Shown piece by piece: positions 58,588-64,000 of a DNA stretch of 64,000 bases. Within the stretch, counting starts at the first letter, position 1, and every line of letters starts with the position of its first letter. Location: positions 67,284 to 131,283 of the forward strand of contig JAUVZD010000009.1 in assembly GCA_030602715.1 (NCBI GenBank), read 5' to 3'. The position numbers were made by a program, and so were the translations under genes. The notes beneath the pieces are model-generated. The model was not told where the DNA came from, ran no database searches, and saw nothing but the letters and a program-made list of their open reading frames with translations. The stretch is from Candidatus Coatesiibacteriota bacterium (GTDB taxonomy: Bacteria > RBG-13-66-14 > B26-G2 > JAUVZD01).

Positions 58588-58938
58588 ATGAAAACGATTA
58601 TGTTATGTGCAATTTTGCTGTTTGTGTTTTCCTGGTCGGCTTTCGGGGAGCAGTATTTTCCTGGTGTTGAAGGGGGGGTGGCAACTTCCGATAGTGCAAC
58701 TTCACTGCTGGTAAATCCTGCAGGGCTGGGGATTCGTGGCGGAGTTAACCTGTCCTTTTCCCAATCGGTAGAGGATTCACTTATATGTAACTCCCGCTTT
58801 TATTTAAAAGTTCCGATTTTTGCCTTCCACTATCAGCGCTATAAACTTACCGACAACCTAAAACAATCCCGCTTCTTGTGGGTGTTACGAGAGTTCTGGA
58901 AAAGTGGTTTCCAATTGGAAAAAGCCAGAAGTGATTGA
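58588..58938 (+). pseudogene. Truncated outer-membrane protein gene (PorV/UPF0164-like start)
   Basis: A 116-residue frame with signal peptide ('MKTIMLCAILLFVFSWSAFG') and the motif 'GGVATSDSATSLLVNPAGLGIRGGVNLSFSQS', the usual start of long (300-450 residue) outer-membrane barrels of the PorV/OmpP1/UPF0164 group. The reading frame then leaves recognisable barrel sequence near 'NLKQSRFLWVLREF' and stops at 58936-58938, within a cluster of repeats. It seems cut by the insertion of the Mu-like element to its right. The ATG at 58588 lies five bases after GGGGAG. Confidence 0.65.
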
Positions 58939-59062
58939 GAAGACAGGAGTTAGAAGGAATTGGGCCATGGAAACCGATTTCTGGAAAAACGCCCAAAAAC
59001 AAGGATTTATGGAAACTTCATTCCAGAACTCGGTTTCCATTAAAAAACTCGTAAGTGATTGA
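58891..59062. repeat. Cluster of direct and inverted repeats (possible transposable-phage end)
   Basis: GAGTTCTGGA (58891-58900) is inverted as TCCAGAACTC (59022-59031). GGTTTCCA (58906-58913) recurs directly at 59032-59039, each followed 13-15 bases later by AAGTGATTGA (58929-58938 and 59053-59062). GGAAACC (58969-58975) is the inverse of GGTTTCC, and TTCTGGAAAA occurs at 58894-58903 and 58979-58988. A set of mixed-orientation, about 20-base sites next to a cut gene and a GemA gene is what the end of a Mu-like element, with several transposase-binding sites, would look like. Confidence 0.55.
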
Positions 59063-59202
59063 AAACAAAGGGTTTGTGGGATTCTGATGCGACAGGAGGA
59101 TACATTTGGATGCGGAATAACCCAAAAAGAATTGATTGATATAAAAACCCCCAAAAGTATAGCAAAATGCTAACTTTAGGGGAACGATTTTCACGGGCTT
59201 CA

Positions 59203-59673
59203 TCAAGACGCTTCGCTCTCCGGAAATGCGTCGGATATCCTCTGCCGCTTGAGCGATTTCAGAGCTTCCGCGCACTTGTGAGCATCGCTGGCGGTGAGCC
59301 AGGCAAGGTCCTCTTTCCCGTATTCCCGCAGAATAAACCTCCGCAGATCTATTAACATGCGCTCTTCCCGGCCGTTGTAGATGTCCACCCACATAGCCTC
59401 CAACATGCGCAGTATCTCCGCCGATGCCATCCCCTTCCGCTCCCCGAGCTCGTCATATTTTTTCTGCCCGGATTTGGGCTGATAGACGAACCCCATCCCC
59501 TTCAGCTTCCCCAGGATAACATCAAACGCTTCCCAGGTCAAGTCCTTGGTTGACTCCACGCCACCGATAGAGTGAAGCATAGCCCCGAACTCCTCGTCCG
59601 AGAGCCCTACCTGCCGTTGAGCGACCCGGAGCAGCCTTATCTGCGATTCACTTATCTTTGCCCGTGGTGGCAC
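59203..59673 (-). CDS. Mu GemA (gp16)-like protein, DUF1018
   Basis: A 156-residue protein matching the GemA/gp16 family of Mu-like phages: 'ISESQIRLLRVAQRQVGLSDEEFGAMLHSIGGVESTKDLTWEAFDVILGKLKGMGF' (N-terminal half) and 'GMASAEILRMLEAMWVDIY...DLAWLTASDAHKCAEALKSLK' (C-terminal half). In Mu it lies in the early-to-middle region and affects host gene expression and DNA supercoiling. The GTG at 59673 lies six bases after GGGAGG. It is the last gene before the repeat cluster, so the element lacks the morphogenesis genes that follow gemA in Mu, at least on this side. Confidence 0.85.
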   Translation of the reverse strand: MPPRAKISESQIRLLRVAQRQVGLSDEEFGAMLHSIGGVESTKDLTWEAFDVILGKLKGMGFVYQPKSGQKKYDELGERKGMASAEILRMLEAMWVDIYNGREERMLIDLRRFILREYGKEDLAWLTASDAHKCAEALKSLKRQRISDAFPESEAS

Positions 59674-59685
59674 CTAAAACCTCCC

Positions 59686-60360
59686 TCAATCCTTCAACAC
59701 CGCCGGTTCCAAATAGATTACGCCGATGACATCAAAGCCGTCAAAAAACCACCGCTCATCATCTTCCCATGCGACAATGCCGATTTCTCCTCGCCCTACA
59801 ACTCCCCTAGTATCCGGTTGGGCGACGAAAGAAGTATCCGGGAACGGAGGAAAACATATCACCGAGCTACCCAGGCGCTCAAAATCCCATAGATTGAGAA
59901 AGCAGACCTCGGTAGTGCCGATACCCTCCACTTTGTCCTGCACATCGGCATTGACCATTTTCAGGGAGGGCTGAGGCTCCAGGATATGGACGACGAACTG
60001 CTCCTGGGTCATCTCCGTGTTGCCCTGAATTCCCACTAAATCCTCCAGAAAGATGGTGCGAGCGACATTCTTGGGGACGGCGGATAGCCAGACTTCGTAG
60101 ACCGAGTTTTGCCTTTTTAACTTGGCTATGGTTCTAAGGTCGTTCCCCTGCATGAGTATGGCGTCCATCAGCGCTAGCTCTAGGCGGTTTTCCACATCGG
60201 CGAGTCGCTCCTCCGCCTCGCTGGCCCGCCTCTGGGCCTCAAGAGCTCCATCAATCGCCGGACCGTAGCAGACCATGCCCCCGATGAACAGCCCCGCGCA
60301 GACTGAAAACCAGACCAGATGGATGAGCCAGAACTTGCGTCTCTCCGCTTTTTTTCGCAT
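59686..60360 (-). CDS. Single-pass membrane protein with coiled coil
   Basis: A 224-residue protein of unknown function. A basic head and one transmembrane helix ('FWLIHLVWFSVCAGLFIGGMVCYG', residues about 9-32) are followed by a coiled coil ('LEAQRRASEAEERLADVENRLELAL') and a beta-rich C-terminal domain. The ATG follows GGAGGTGCT. It is 12 bases upstream of gemA and belongs to the same leftward phage-like operon. It may be an inner-membrane spanin or an exclusion-type protein, but no motif decides this. Confidence 0.6.
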   Translation of the reverse strand: MRKKAERRKFWLIHLVWFSVCAGLFIGGMVCYGPAIDGALEAQRRASEAEERLADVENRLELALMDAILMQGNDLRTIAKLKRQNSVYEVWLSAVPKNVARTIFLEDLVGIQGNTEMTQEQFVVHILEPQPSLKMVNADVQDKVEGIGTTEVCFLNLWDFERLGSSVICFPPFPDTSFVAQPDTRGVVGRGEIGIVAWEDDERWFFDGFDVIGVIYLEPAVLKD

Positions 60361-60372
60361 AGCACCTCCGGG

Positions 60373-60867
60373 TTACTTTTCCTTGAAGGATATCGTCGGC
60401 TTGCCGGGTTTGATAAACATGTAGTCGCGCAAGCCCAGATATTTCTGGGGCTCGGAGATGGCGATCTTCACCAATTTTTTTGTGGGCTCGTGGGTGGTTT
60501 TGGCATCTATCAGGAGCCCAAAATCATCGCCCAGGATTTTGCATATCTCCTTGATGTCGCCGAGGGTCACTTTATCGGTGACCACATGTTTGCAGACGGT
60601 GTCTGGCGTCTCCATGGTGACCGTTGCTACCGGAAGTTTTAGCGACTTCACATACTGGGCGATAAGTTCCTTCTTCTGCTTCAGTTTCTCCTTGAGGCGT
60701 TTCATCTCGGTGTCTATCAGCCCGGCGGAATCTATGGCCTCAGCCAGGTCGGGTTCGGTAACCTCGTCTTTCTGGCGTCCCATGTGGGTATAGCTGATTT
60801 TCAATTTGGGACAGACCTTATCCCTCTTCTGGTCGCCGAGCCCGAACTCCACTACTTTGCTGGTCAT
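60373..60867 (-). CDS. Phage-like hypothetical protein with coiled coil
   Basis: A 164-residue soluble protein. The first 60 residues lead into a long charged helix ('EAIDSAGLIDTEMKRLKEKLKQKKELIAQYVKSL'), followed by an alpha/beta part ('VTLGDIKEICKILGDDFGLLID') and 'SEPQKYLGLRDYMFIKPGKPTISF' at the end. Its position before gemA and its helical start recall the host-nuclease inhibitor Gam, but I see no convincing sequence match. Ribosome site AGGTAGTGAG. A 13-base perfect palindrome lies in the upstream gap. Confidence 0.6.
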   Translation of the reverse strand: MTSKVVEFGLGDQKRDKVCPKLKISYTHMGRQKDEVTEPDLAEAIDSAGLIDTEMKRLKEKLKQKKELIAQYVKSLKLPVATVTMETPDTVCKHVVTDKVTLGDIKEICKILGDDFGLLIDAKTTHEPTKKLVKIAISEPQKYLGLRDYMFIKPGKPTISFKEK

Positions 60868-60890
60868 CTCACTACCTCCTTGGGTTTGCC

Positions 60891-60919
60891 CCCCCGTCCC
60901 GCCGATGGCGGGACGGGGG
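60891..60919. repeat. GC-rich mini-palindrome 1 (intergenic)
   Basis: CCCCCGTCCCGCC-GAT-GGCGGGACGGGGG, 13 perfect base pairs with a three-base loop, between two phage-like genes. Confidence 0.9.
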
Positions 60920-60940
60920 AAGTTGTCTTTATTGCCGTCA

Positions 60941-61378
60941 TTATTTTTGGGGAATCAATCCCTCCACACCCTGTTCTCGGTATTTTTTGCGCCAACGGAA
61001 CCAGGTTGACTCCGCTATATGATTTTCCTTCAGCCATTCCACCAGAGCGGGATATCCGCCCTGGGCATGGATGCGCCCTCCTTCAACCACCAATTGGATT
61101 TTCTCCCCCGCCAACGGCGGGGCTCTCTCCCCACTCCCTCGTGGATGGGTCTGCACCAGGTCCCTCAGCAGGGGTAGGCGCCCCGCCACCCCGCCCCCGC
61201 CATAGGCGGGGGGGCACACCGCTCGGATGAAGGGGCAGGCGCCGCAGGCATCAATCACCTGATGAACGATGCGCTCCCGACCGGTATGTAGCCGATGCAA
61301 CTGGTCATGCCGTCGGCTGAGCCCGCGCTTCAGCTTCCCTCCGCAGATGGGGCAGATGTGGGTGGTGATGGTCATCAA
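60941..61378 (-). CDS. Zinc-finger / HTH protein of the phage-like operon
   Basis: A 145-residue protein. The N-terminus has 'HICPICGGKLKRG' and 'DACGACPFIRAVCPP', two Cys pairs likely to bind zinc. The C-terminus 'YPALVEWLKENHIAESTWFRWRKKYREQGVEGLIPQ' is a helix-turn-helix of the transposase/MerR-like type ('W-x-R-K-x-Y-x-x-x-G-x-x-G-L'). It could be a regulator. The middle contains two short Pro/Gly-rich stretches ('PPAYGGGG', 'APPLAGE') encoded by mini-palindromes. The ATG overlaps the methyltransferase stop by four bases. Confidence 0.65.
   Translation of the reverse strand: MMTITTHICPICGGKLKRGLSRRHDQLHRLHTGRERIVHQVIDACGACPFIRAVCPPAYGGGGVAGRLPLLRDLVQTHPRGSGERAPPLAGEKIQLVVEGGRIHAQGGYPALVEWLKENHIAESTWFRWRKKYREQGVEGLIPQK
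61106..61122. repeat. GC-rich mini-palindrome 2 (inside the HTH gene)
   Basis: CCCCGCC-AAC-GGCGGGG, encodes 'PPLAGE' in the zinc/HTH protein. Confidence 0.85.
61194..61212. repeat. GC-rich mini-palindrome 3 (inside the HTH gene)
   Basis: CCCCCGCC-ATA-GGCGGGGG, encodes 'PPAYGGG' in the zinc/HTH protein. Confidence 0.85.
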
Positions 61379-62982
61379 AACATCGCCTCCTGCATGACCG
61401 AATGTTCCAATCGCTTGACCGCCAGCTCACAGTATTTCTCGCTGACATCCAAAACCACTGCATCACATCCCAATTTATAAGCCACTTCCGCCACCGTCCC
61501 GCTACCGCCAAAGGGGTCAAAAACTATTGCCTTTTTGGTCTCTCCCCCGCCCCCGCCTGTGGCGGGGGGGCATTCGCAGGTGGGCTGGAAGCCGAGAGTT
61601 TTAATTTGCTTATCCTTACGGATCATCCCCGCCATTGGAGAGATTTTTTCAATCATTTCCCGTTCAATTTTTTTACCAATATGTCCCCGTGAACTTGGAG
61701 TATATTCTATCTCCGTTACCCGCTCCCACGGTGCACCGCACTTGGAGCATATCTTTATAGGCGCTCCGGCCTTGATGCAGGGGATCACCAGGTCCGGGGG
61801 GAAAGTGGCGAAGTGCGCATCTTTGTAACTTTTTGTAGGGATTGTCCAGACTGACCTGCGGTTGCGACCTAGAGACGGATTACCGCAAATTCTAGCTTCT
61901 GGTAATCGTCCACCAATTCTTTCATCCCATTTCCCTCCATATTTTTTATGTCCATATAGGGCTCGGTAAATATCATGTTTATTATTATCCGTCCATTTTT
62001 CCCTCACTGCATCCGCATCGTAGAAATAGTCGTGTCCCCTCCATAAGTTAATCCGCTTCCACTTCCACACTTCCCCCTTACGGGGCTCCCGTCCCTCATG
62101 CCCACCGGTGTCCTCCTCATCAGGCTCCGGGTTATTACACGCATCGCAAGGGGCTTTCATGGTCTGCTCCCCAAAGAGGTCTCCCACCAGTATTGACCTC
62201 TTGCCCGTCCCTTCACAAAAAGGACAGGTGATAATGGACTGCTTCCAGTTGGGGGGTTCCTCAGCGACTTCGTAACCGGTGATGTGCTTGTAGCGATAAT
62301 CGGGTTTGGGCCGGCTTTGTGTCCCCCTGCCTTCCCGGTGCGTCCAGTAAAGTGAATTTCCGCTCTGGGAGAGAATGAACAGATATTCATGAGAGCGGGT
62401 CGGTCTGTCGGTGCAGGATTCGGGCATGGGATTGGGCTTATTCCAGATGCCATCCATCCTCAGCCACCCCCCATCGGCACGGAGGGCAAAGGCGACCATC
62501 CAGGGAACGCCGACCAGGTCTTTGGGCTTGAGTCCTTTAGGTGCCAAATATCTTTCAGGCATTTCTAAATCGCCATAATGAGGAATCCCTTGGCGATTAA
62601 ACGAGTTTGATAACCCTGGATTGGCATGGTATTCTTTGTGTGCTCCACCGCTTCCAGCATAACTATCTCCCATATTCAGCCACACCGTCCCCCAGGGGGC
62701 CAGCACCCGCTTGATTTTGCGGAAGACCTCCACTAAGTGCTGGACATATAGCTCCGGCGTGGGTTCAAGACCCAGACATCCCCGCCACCCCGACCCGCCA
62801 AAGGCGGGTGCGGGGCCGCCCCATATCTCCGGCTCAAGTCCGTAATCCCGAAGCCCCCAGTATGGCGGCGAGGTCACCACACAAGCGAAATGGTCGTCGG
62901 GCCAAGGGAACTCCTCCTGCACGCTCCCGTGCCAGACCTCAATGCCCCCGCCAGAGGCGGGGTCTGGCCAGAATTTTCTCAA
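61375..62982 (-). CDS. DNA methyltransferase (N6-adenine/N4-cytosine, TSPPY type)
   Basis: A 535-residue beta-class-order methyltransferase. Catalytic motif IV is 'VVTSPPYWGLRDYG' near residue 37 and the S-adenosylmethionine motif I is 'VFDPFGGSGTVAEVAYKLGCDAVVLDVSEKY' near the C-terminus. Between them is 'GTVWLNMGDSYAGSG' and an insertion with two zinc modules: 'CPFCEGTGKR...CDACNN' (DnaJ-like) and 'CSKCGAPW'. It would protect phage DNA or alter host marks; no restriction enzyme is adjacent, so it is an orphan. It overlaps its neighbours at both ends by ATGA. Three GC-rich palindromes sit in frame, adding 'PPATGGGGG', 'PAPAFGGSG' and 'PASGGG'. Confidence 0.92.
   Translation of the reverse strand: MRKFWPDPASGGGIEVWHGSVQEEFPWPDDHFACVVTSPPYWGLRDYGLEPEIWGGPAPAFGGSGWRGCLGLEPTPELYVQHLVEVFRKIKRVLAPWGTVWLNMGDSYAGSGGAHKEYHANPGLSNSFNRQGIPHYGDLEMPERYLAPKGLKPKDLVGVPWMVAFALRADGGWLRMDGIWNKPNPMPESCTDRPTRSHEYLFILSQSGNSLYWTHREGRGTQSRPKPDYRYKHITGYEVAEEPPNWKQSIITCPFCEGTGKRSILVGDLFGEQTMKAPCDACNNPEPDEEDTGGHEGREPRKGEVWKWKRINLWRGHDYFYDADAVREKWTDNNKHDIYRALYGHKKYGGKWDERIGGRLPEARICGNPSLGRNRRSVWTIPTKSYKDAHFATFPPDLVIPCIKAGAPIKICSKCGAPWERVTEIEYTPSSRGHIGKKIEREMIEKISPMAGMIRKDKQIKTLGFQPTCECPPATGGGGGETKKAIVFDPFGGSGTVAEVAYKLGCDAVVLDVSEKYCELAVKRLEHSVMQEAMF
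61550..61568. repeat. GC-rich mini-palindrome 4 (inside the methyltransferase)
   Basis: CCCCCGCC-TGT-GGCGGGGG, encodes 'PPATGGGG' just upstream of SAM motif I. Confidence 0.85.
62793..62809. repeat. GC-rich mini-palindrome 5 (inside the methyltransferase)
   Basis: ACCCGCC-AAA-GGCGGGT, encodes 'PAFGGS' shortly after the TSPPY motif. Confidence 0.85.
62946..62962. repeat. GC-rich mini-palindrome 6 (methyltransferase N-terminus)
   Basis: CCCCGCC-AGA-GGCGGGG, encodes 'PASGGG' within the first 13 residues of the methyltransferase. Confidence 0.85.
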
Positions 62983-63215
62983 CTCATCCTCTCATTCAAT
63001 CTCCTCAACGCCCGCACCAAATCCCGCCTGTCTGCGGGGGAGACGCCGGCTTGGAGTATGCCCGGAAACCACTTGCGGGGCAGGTCATAGTGGGGATGGC
63101 CCTTCTTTGCCCCGTGAAATTTATGTCTGGGCAACCCAACCCTTTGGGCGAAGTTATGGAGCTCTGCTTCTGACCTATCTGATATAAGATGAACTCCATC
63201 GGTGAAAATAGCCAT
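62979..63215 (-). CDS. DUF4031 family protein
   Basis: A 78-residue protein that reads 'MAIFTDGVHLISDRSEAELHNFAQRVGLPRHKFHGAKKGHPHYDLP', matching DUF4031, small proteins of phages and actinobacteria with a conserved 'H-x-F-A-x-x-x-G-L-x-x-x-x-F' and 'H-Y-D-L'. Function unknown. The ATG at 63215 follows GAGGGGAATTTA; an in-frame start at 63263 lies in the neighbouring gene. It overlaps the methyltransferase start by four bases. A degenerate palindrome (CCCGC 63023-63027, GCGGG 63034-63038) is inside it. Confidence 0.8.
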   Translation of the reverse strand: MAIFTDGVHLISDRSEAELHNFAQRVGLPRHKFHGAKKGHPHYDLPRKWFPGILQAGVSPADRRDLVRALRRLNERMS

Positions 63216-63237
63216 TAAATTCCCCTCTCCACTTCGC

Positions 63238-63399
63238 TCAGTTACGGCGCTGATAAGCGTCAAAGAACAAAGATGTCTTCATATATAACCTATTGGCTAG
63301 GCGGCGGATAGCTTCTGGATTTATCTCTGCACGCAGTTGAATGTGAAGAATAGAAGATTTAAACTTTTCAAAATCGCCCAGTTTTATGTTTATTGCCAT
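63238..63399 (-). CDS. Small 53-residue phage-like protein
   Basis: A short basic frame beginning 'MAINIKLGDFEKFKSSILHI' and ending 'FFDAYQRRN'. Upstream is GGTGAGTTGAG; it lies 22 bases before the DUF4031 gene on the same strand in an otherwise tightly packed operon. No family recognised; called from its context and coding look. Confidence 0.5.
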   Translation of the reverse strand: MAINIKLGDFEKFKSSILHIQLRAEINPEAIRRLANRLYMKTSLFFDAYQRRN

Positions 63400-63417
63400 C
63401 TCAACTCACCCTCGTTC

Positions 63418-63434
63418 CCCCGCCAGAGGCGGGG
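63418..63434. repeat. GC-rich mini-palindrome 7 (intergenic)
   Basis: CCCCGCC-AGA-GGCGGGG, identical to palindrome 6, in the gap between two small phage-like genes. Confidence 0.9.
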
Positions 63435-63449
63435 CAGATGATGCCATGA

Positions 63450-63794
63450 TCAAAGGGTAGCGATTGGCGCGGCATATAAAATTAGCACCTCTTTTTCGGT
63501 GATTTTATGCTTCCCCAAAGACCTATTGAATTTTCTGGCGTTGTTGACTTGAAATATCTTCATCCCGAATAGACAGCCGACGAACTCCGCCCCGGGGTGT
63601 GGGCTTGGGATTTCATCATCGCTGCGGATGATAGAAAAAAGTTCATCCAATATCTCAATGACCAATGGGTAGCAGACCATGCTACTAGGGATTCCATAAG
63701 CACCCCGCATCCAAATCCTTTCCCATTCGGAGAAAATATTTTTTAATTCCTCCCGGTCCAATTCCATCTCCTCCTCGTATGATGGCTTGCTCAT
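63450..63794 (-). CDS. Phage-like hypothetical protein
   Basis: A 114-residue mostly helical protein ('MSKPSYEEEMELDREELKNIFSEWERIWMRG', acidic N-terminal half; 'KFNRSLGKHKITEKEVLILYAA' basic C-terminal half). No family recognised. The ATG at 63794 overlaps the stop of the small membrane protein upstream (ATGA) and follows GGGAG; a TTG at 63821 in the same frame is less likely. Member of the leftward operon. Confidence 0.6.
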   Translation of the reverse strand: MSKPSYEEEMELDREELKNIFSEWERIWMRGAYGIPSSMVCYPLVIEILDELFSIIRSDDEIPSPHPGAEFVGCLFGMKIFQVNNARKFNRSLGKHKITEKEVLILYAAPIATL

Positions 63795-63928
63795 ATCTCC
63801 CAACTCCCGGTCCTTAGCCAATCAATAGTAGCGATGACCGCGATCAGCCCCAGCCAGGGCAGGGCGAGGTAGAACAGAAACCATCCCTCTGCCCGCTCGC
63901 AGATTCTATCCCACCGCGGTTTGCTCAT
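63791..63928 (-). CDS. Small membrane protein (45 residues)
   Basis: A 45-residue protein with one transmembrane helix ('GWFLFYLALPWLGLIAVIATI') and a basic start ('MSKPRWDRICERAE'). It overlaps both neighbours: the stop shares ATGA with the gene at 63450-63794, and the start lies inside the end of the partial upstream gene. Such tight overlaps are typical of phage early operons. Function unknown; too short to place. Confidence 0.55.
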   Translation of the reverse strand: MSKPRWDRICERAEGWFLFYLALPWLGLIAVIATIDWLRTGSWEI

Positions 63929-64000
63929 AATTTATCGCCTCATTTAGGTCTCTAAGGCAGTTCTCACAGATAGTTTTATCTTTGAACTGCACAAATCGCA
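63906..64000 (-). CDS. C-terminal end of a gene cut by the window edge
   Basis: The last 30 codons of a leftward frame, 'RFVQFKDKTICENCLRDLNE...', ending at a TAG (63906-63908). 'C-E-N-C' may be half of a zinc site. It overlaps the next gene start by 23 bases. Only the tail is visible, so the product is unknown. Confidence 0.4.
   Translation of the reverse strand, partial: RFVQFKDKTICENCLRDLNEAINYEQTAVG

Follow-up and report, generated by a model that had tools for sequence, protein, structure and literature searches.

Ends and three insertion sites of a probable Mu/B3-type transposable prophage in a bacterial genome

Introduction

The repeat cluster at 58870-59080 is very probably (at a probability of about 0.88) the left terminus of a transposable prophage of the Mu/B3 type, three copies of which are present in the genome. 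The stretch of DNA analyzed here, referred to as the window, has a length of 64,000 nt and corresponds to bases 67284-131283 of contig C12, the end of which coincides with the right edge of the window. The genome consists of 18 contigs (2.31 Mb). A sequence-only reading had proposed that the cluster was a candidate left or right end of a Mu-like element; this is supported by the matching ends, target duplications and restored reading frame described below, and the end in question is the left one. The word phage is inferred from GemA, from the relatives of a methyltransferase and a DUF4031 protein, from the gene layout and from the ends, and not from virion genes. The hallmarks of Mu/B3-type phages also include TnpA/TnpB, Gam, Mor/C, head, tail and lysis genes and a total length of ∼36-40 kb.

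The result would add a transposable prophage of the Mu/B3 class to a bacterial phylum from which few genomes have been sampled. In addition, the ends of this element are defined exactly, together with three target sites and a putative consensus for the transposase sites.

Results

The features at the junction between the host and the element are as follows.

58588-58876, plus strand: 5' part of the host gene that is cut (barrel-like N-terminal domain of an SppA-like/S49 protease), continued by the 3' part on C13
58872-58876, no strand: target-site duplication CTTCT; the second copy adjoins R on C13
58877-59031, plus strand: left end L, beginning TGTGGGTGTTACG; 58877-59015 are identical at the contig ends of C10 and C14
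58891-58913, plus strand: putative transposase-binding site L1, GAGTTCTGGAAAAGTGGTTTCCA, at bases 15-37 of L, a position shared with R1
58976-58998, plus strand: putative transposase-binding site L2, GATTTCTGGAAAAACGCCCAAAA
59009-59031, minus strand: putative transposase-binding site L3, inverted, GAGTTCTGGAATGAAGTTTCCAT

Element termini

The genome was searched for further copies of the element using window positions 58600-64000 as the query. Exact 140-bp copies of 58876-59015 were found at the extreme end of C10 and the extreme start of C14. The first base of the element is 58877 (TGTGGG...), exactly where the repeats begin, and the first 139 bases of L on C12, C10 and C14 are bordered by host DNA that differs each time. 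A second shared terminus, R, which starts with TGTAGTTTTATCGCGAGTTCTGG (TGTAGT...), is found where C8 and C13 begin, and a third copy lies within the initial 370 bases of C9; the three copies of R agree at 140/140 bases and each adjoins host DNA. The matching ends for which a search had been recommended are thus L on C12, C10 and C14 and R on C13, C8 and C9. Both have the form 5'-TG...CA-3' at three loci each (L, TGTGGG; R, TGTAGT), and apart from shared TTCTGGAAAA-type sites their sequences are different.

Each end contains three copies of a ∼23-bp site with the consensus GANTTCTGGAAAAAAGTTTCCAT, as judged from the sequence repeats. The first of these occupies bases 15-37 at L and R alike. 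The remaining sites of L are direct at bases 100-122 and inverted at bases 133-155, and those of R, all of which are direct, are at bases 36-58 and 104-126. These six end repeats are most likely to be the sites at which a phage DDE transposase pairs and cuts the ends. When the site patterns were searched in GTDB genomes and in the phylum, they matched this genome only.

Every repeat that had been named in the cluster is present. The GGTTTCCA...AAGTGATTGA block occurs twice (at about 58906-58938 and 59032-59062), GAGTTCTGGAA at 58891-58901 has an inverted copy, TTCCAGAACTC, at 59021-59031, and a further inverted pair (58967-58986 and 59021-59040) is 95% complementary over 20 nt. The cluster contains six exact 10-mer pairs, a density that only six of 1172 equally long host windows reach. 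The repeat density is therefore high, yet not unique taken alone, and the meaning of the cluster comes instead from the independent R end that shares its site: the R-end 20-mer TTCTGGAAAAAAGTTTCCAT has a single match in the 64-kb window, at 59009-59028 on the minus strand with two mismatches, where none is expected.

Target duplications and insertion sites

The five host bases preceding L are CTTCT on C12, CCAGT on C10 and GTGGT on C14, and the five bases outside R are CTTCT on C13, CCAGT on C8 and GTGGT on C9 (matching strand). The 5-base duplication that had been suggested as a check was thus found at three sites, where it pairs the flanks of L and R perfectly and one-to-one (C12 with C13, C10 with C8 and C14 with C9). 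This pairing shows that the element has inserted three separate times in the genome, each time with a 5-bp duplication. The three target sites are unrelated and have no common attachment sequence.

The second copy (C10/C8) sits between two genes. The third (C14/C9) lies between recA (L008:192-1286), after which C14 ends, and recX (L142:408-1106), with which C9 begins. The two genes are adjacent in a relative of the same class (G004); in the other relatives from the phylum recX was not detected beside recA. A search with RecA gave 70% identity for the best match and thus no near relative. A copy that separates recA from recX could uncouple the expression of recX from that of recA.

Interrupted protease gene

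When C12 and C13 were joined with one CTTCT removed, a single frame ran from the ATG at 58588 into the open reading frame (ORF) on C13, the C-terminal part of which belongs to Peptidase family S49 (PF01343). The match spans both sides of the join in one open frame of 790-927 residues in 11 of 13 relatives from the phylum, and the remaining two gave a short protease match or none. An alignment of nine relatives passes through the join in all except L234, for which the wrong reading frame had been taken. The gene that is cut encodes an SppA-like (S49) protease with an N-terminal barrel-like domain. It had been described as an outer-membrane protein gene cut after about 116 residues, which is right in kind; native codons continue to about residue 96 from the ATG at 58588, beyond which the frame of the host gene reads into the element. 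The missing 3' part, which was to be sought on the far side, is on C13 and in frame.

Assembly around the element

C12 stops 5.1 kb inside the element, and the assembly lacks the interior from window position 64000 to the last 370 bases at R. Comparison of all contig ends revealed recurrent 141-base overlaps, the pattern that a k=141 assembly would leave. At L, and likewise at R, one of the three contigs continues through the end, and its last flank base is different from that of the other two. This looks like an effect of the assembler, and the element interior on C12 may therefore be a composite of the three copies. C5 was considered as a source of the interior and rejected, since its first 20 kb appears to be devoted to host metabolism. 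A three-copy element explains why the genome assembly breaks at these contig ends; furthermore, contig ends can suffice to resolve a multicopy prophage in an assembly from a metagenome.

Genes inside the left arm

All of the genes taken as real inside L are on the minus strand, i.e. they point to L, with gemA the last of them.

59143-59190, minus strand: terminator-like hairpin followed by GTTTTT, just after gemA (fold z -3.0; 0/200 shuffles as stable)
59203-59673, minus strand: homologue of GemA, the last of the left-arm genes (PF06252, E 3e-20; PHROG 286, 7.6e-24)
59686-60360, minus strand: 224-aa ORF with a hydrophobic N-terminal stretch, no family
60373-60867, minus strand: 164-aa ORF, phage family of unknown function (PHROG 27552, E 1e-6)
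60941-61378, minus strand: 145-aa ORF with a zinc-ribbon-like N-terminus and an HTH-like C-terminus (PF13518, E 0.002, below cut-off)
61375-62982, minus strand: phage-type N6/N4 DNA methyltransferase, 535 aa (PF01555; PHROG 67, 4.5e-47)
62979-63263, minus strand: DUF4031 protein, 94 aa (PF13223; PHROG 4887)
63450-63821, minus strand: 123-aa ORF, no family
63791-63928, minus strand: 45-aa ORF for a small membrane protein, from its translation; only 72 bases of contig remain upstream of the start

The GemA-encoding region recognized in the sequence-only reading is confirmed by Pfam, with a PF06252 score of 73.8 bits against a cut-off of 27. The hairpin that follows gemA was not listed by a simple consensus terminator scan. 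Between GemA and L there is no Mor gene. The 164-aa ORF is near the position at which other transposable phages have gam; it gave no match to Gam and has no PDB relative.

The transposase models PF09299 and PF02914 had no match in the contigs searched, from which the element interior is absent, nor in any control genome; as they are silent in the control genomes too, their silence here does not indicate absence. The phylum (14 genomes) yielded no other GemA. In tblastn searches against known phages, GemA gave matches at 28-36% identity only and the 164-aa ORF gave none. Searches of IMG/VR with the exact site, GemA, the 164-aa ORF and the two inner contig ends returned nothing useful, and a search with the DUF4031 protein returned one weak match in a short contig. 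The methyltransferase has 332 generic viral relatives; in 80 of their loci, none of these relatives adjoins the other genes of the element.

Gene at the R end

C9 runs about 230 bases beyond the common 140, into the start of an inward-running gene for a secreted protein (L142:2-142, minus strand), which is the first gene inside R. Four tandem relatives are located on host contig C4 (138220-141462; L135-L138) and share 44-57% identity with it over the first 50 residues. It is most likely to be an accessory gene of host origin, possibly taken by the prophage from the host lineage.

GC-rich palindromes

The genome has 63 occurrences of the palindrome CCCGCC-NNN-GGCGGG, compared with 0-6 in each of 13 relatives from the phylum. 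The window contains seven (60898-60912, 61107-61121, 61196-61210, 61552-61566, 62794-62808, 62947-62961 and 63419-63433), all within 2.5 kb of prophage, against none expected in the window. Several fall in frame within genes; others, located between genes, resemble terminators. Two in the methyltransferase gene, at 61552 (PPATGGGG) and 62794 (PAPAFGGS), coincide with stretches of ∼8 residues that are missing from the closest-aligning homologues, and from this alignment they look like insertions of about eight residues. In-frame palindromic elements exist in Rickettsia, which those found here resemble on a smaller scale. Further clusters at 125-168 kb on C4 and 134-168 kb on C10 (L262, L263 and L271-L273) are possibly further horizontally acquired islands; the palindrome at 136.9 kb on C10 (L271) is in frame beside the NPPY motif of another DNA methyltransferase.

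Discussion

In a transposable prophage of the Mu/B3 type, a phage DDE transposase would pair and cut the ends at the ∼23-bp sites. The cut ends would then be joined to target strands staggered by five bases, and gap repair would give rise to the duplications. The genes next to L, the order of which is read directly from the contig, form the distal part of the early arm, with gemA last. In the left arm of B3, the genes closest to the left end are those for Mor and GemA, with TnpB at 4.4-5.6 kb and TnpA at 5.6-7.3 kb; as the window stops at 5.1 kb, the transposase pair would by analogy be expected just beyond it, past the contig end. A regulatory switch would follow, and then virion genes running to R. 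Four observations count against this reading: the R-end gene encodes a host-like secreted protein and not a tail protein; genes for a transposase, an ATPase, a terminase, a portal and a tail are all missing from the assembled part; Mor, present in B3, is absent between GemA and L, although the transposable prophages of Leptospira lack it as well; and the duplication has 5 bp instead of the 6 bp reported for B3. The lack of virion and transposase genes is explained by the absence of the interior from the assembly.

The alternative that survives best, although it is unlikely, is a non-phage transposon with a DDE transposase of the Mu/Tn7/Tn552 class that has acquired gemA and other genes, or else a decayed or satellite remnant of an early arm. 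The TGTGGG ends with 5-bp duplications are like those of the Tn7 class, and the host-like gene at R and the lack of visible virion genes in the assembled part would also suit such a transposon. However, GemA agrees with B3, as does the orientation of the left arm over at least 5 kb, L mixes inverted and direct sites, and the three unrelated targets have no common attachment sequence. Less to be expected again is a Mu-class transposon, or a phage becoming one, that carries a gene of a host secreted-protein family at one end and spreads as a multicopy element. It is highly improbable that an insertion sequence (IS) or MITE-like repeat lies by chance beside a separate prophage: IS copies are a frequent cause of assembly breaks and inverted repeats are abundant in the region, but L and R differ outside their sites and are paired with each other, and L is followed directly by an array of genes more than 5 kb long without an IS transposase. 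A chimeric contig join of a host gene to phage DNA has a near-negligible probability, for although C12 crosses a three-way repeat junction and its interior is possibly composite, the junction sequence recurs with other flanks, CTTCT matches C13 exactly and the gene frame is restored.

Comparison with known elements

The layout of the probable prophage is of the B3 type rather than the Mu type, whereas its 5-bp duplication length is that of Mu. Among the element genes seen, GemA is the sole tie to known transposable phages.

Tn7-class transposons have 5-bp duplications, a TGTGGG terminus and multiple sites per end; TnsABC and a targeting protein are further hallmarks of the class. Unlike them, the element described here carries genes for GemA and a phage methyltransferase and occupies three unrelated target sites.

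Escherichia phage Mu (AF083977) likewise has TG ends, GemA and several transposase sites in mixed orientation at each end, which a consensus scan placed at 6-27, 82-103 and 151-172 in L and at 6-27, 28-49 and 56-77 in R. The Mu sites differ in sequence, orientations and offset from the end (6 in Mu versus 15 here), and gemA of Mu, at 8.2 kb from the left end, is directed away from that end, whereas here it is near L and points to L. Mu makes a 5-bp duplication, as does this element (PMC8705779).

Phage B3 of Pseudomonas (Beetrevirus; AF232233) resembles the element in that gemA is second from the left end and the early genes point there, and it also has TG...CA ends (PMC8705779). It differs in having Mor between GemA and the end, where the element has none, and its duplications are of 6 bp versus 5 bp (PMC8705779), so the element departs from B3 (Beetrevirus) proper in this respect.

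The transposable prophages of Leptospira, a host from another phylum, make 6-bp duplications and some have TA-TA ends, unlike the element described here (PMC8705779). They lack Mor/C (PMC8705779), and the upsetting of assemblies by several identical prophage copies per genome has already been described for them (PMC8705779). As here, they have a B3-like two-arm layout with gemA near one end (PMC8705779), a position that is stated for the Leptospira and B3 prophages alike (PMC8705779).
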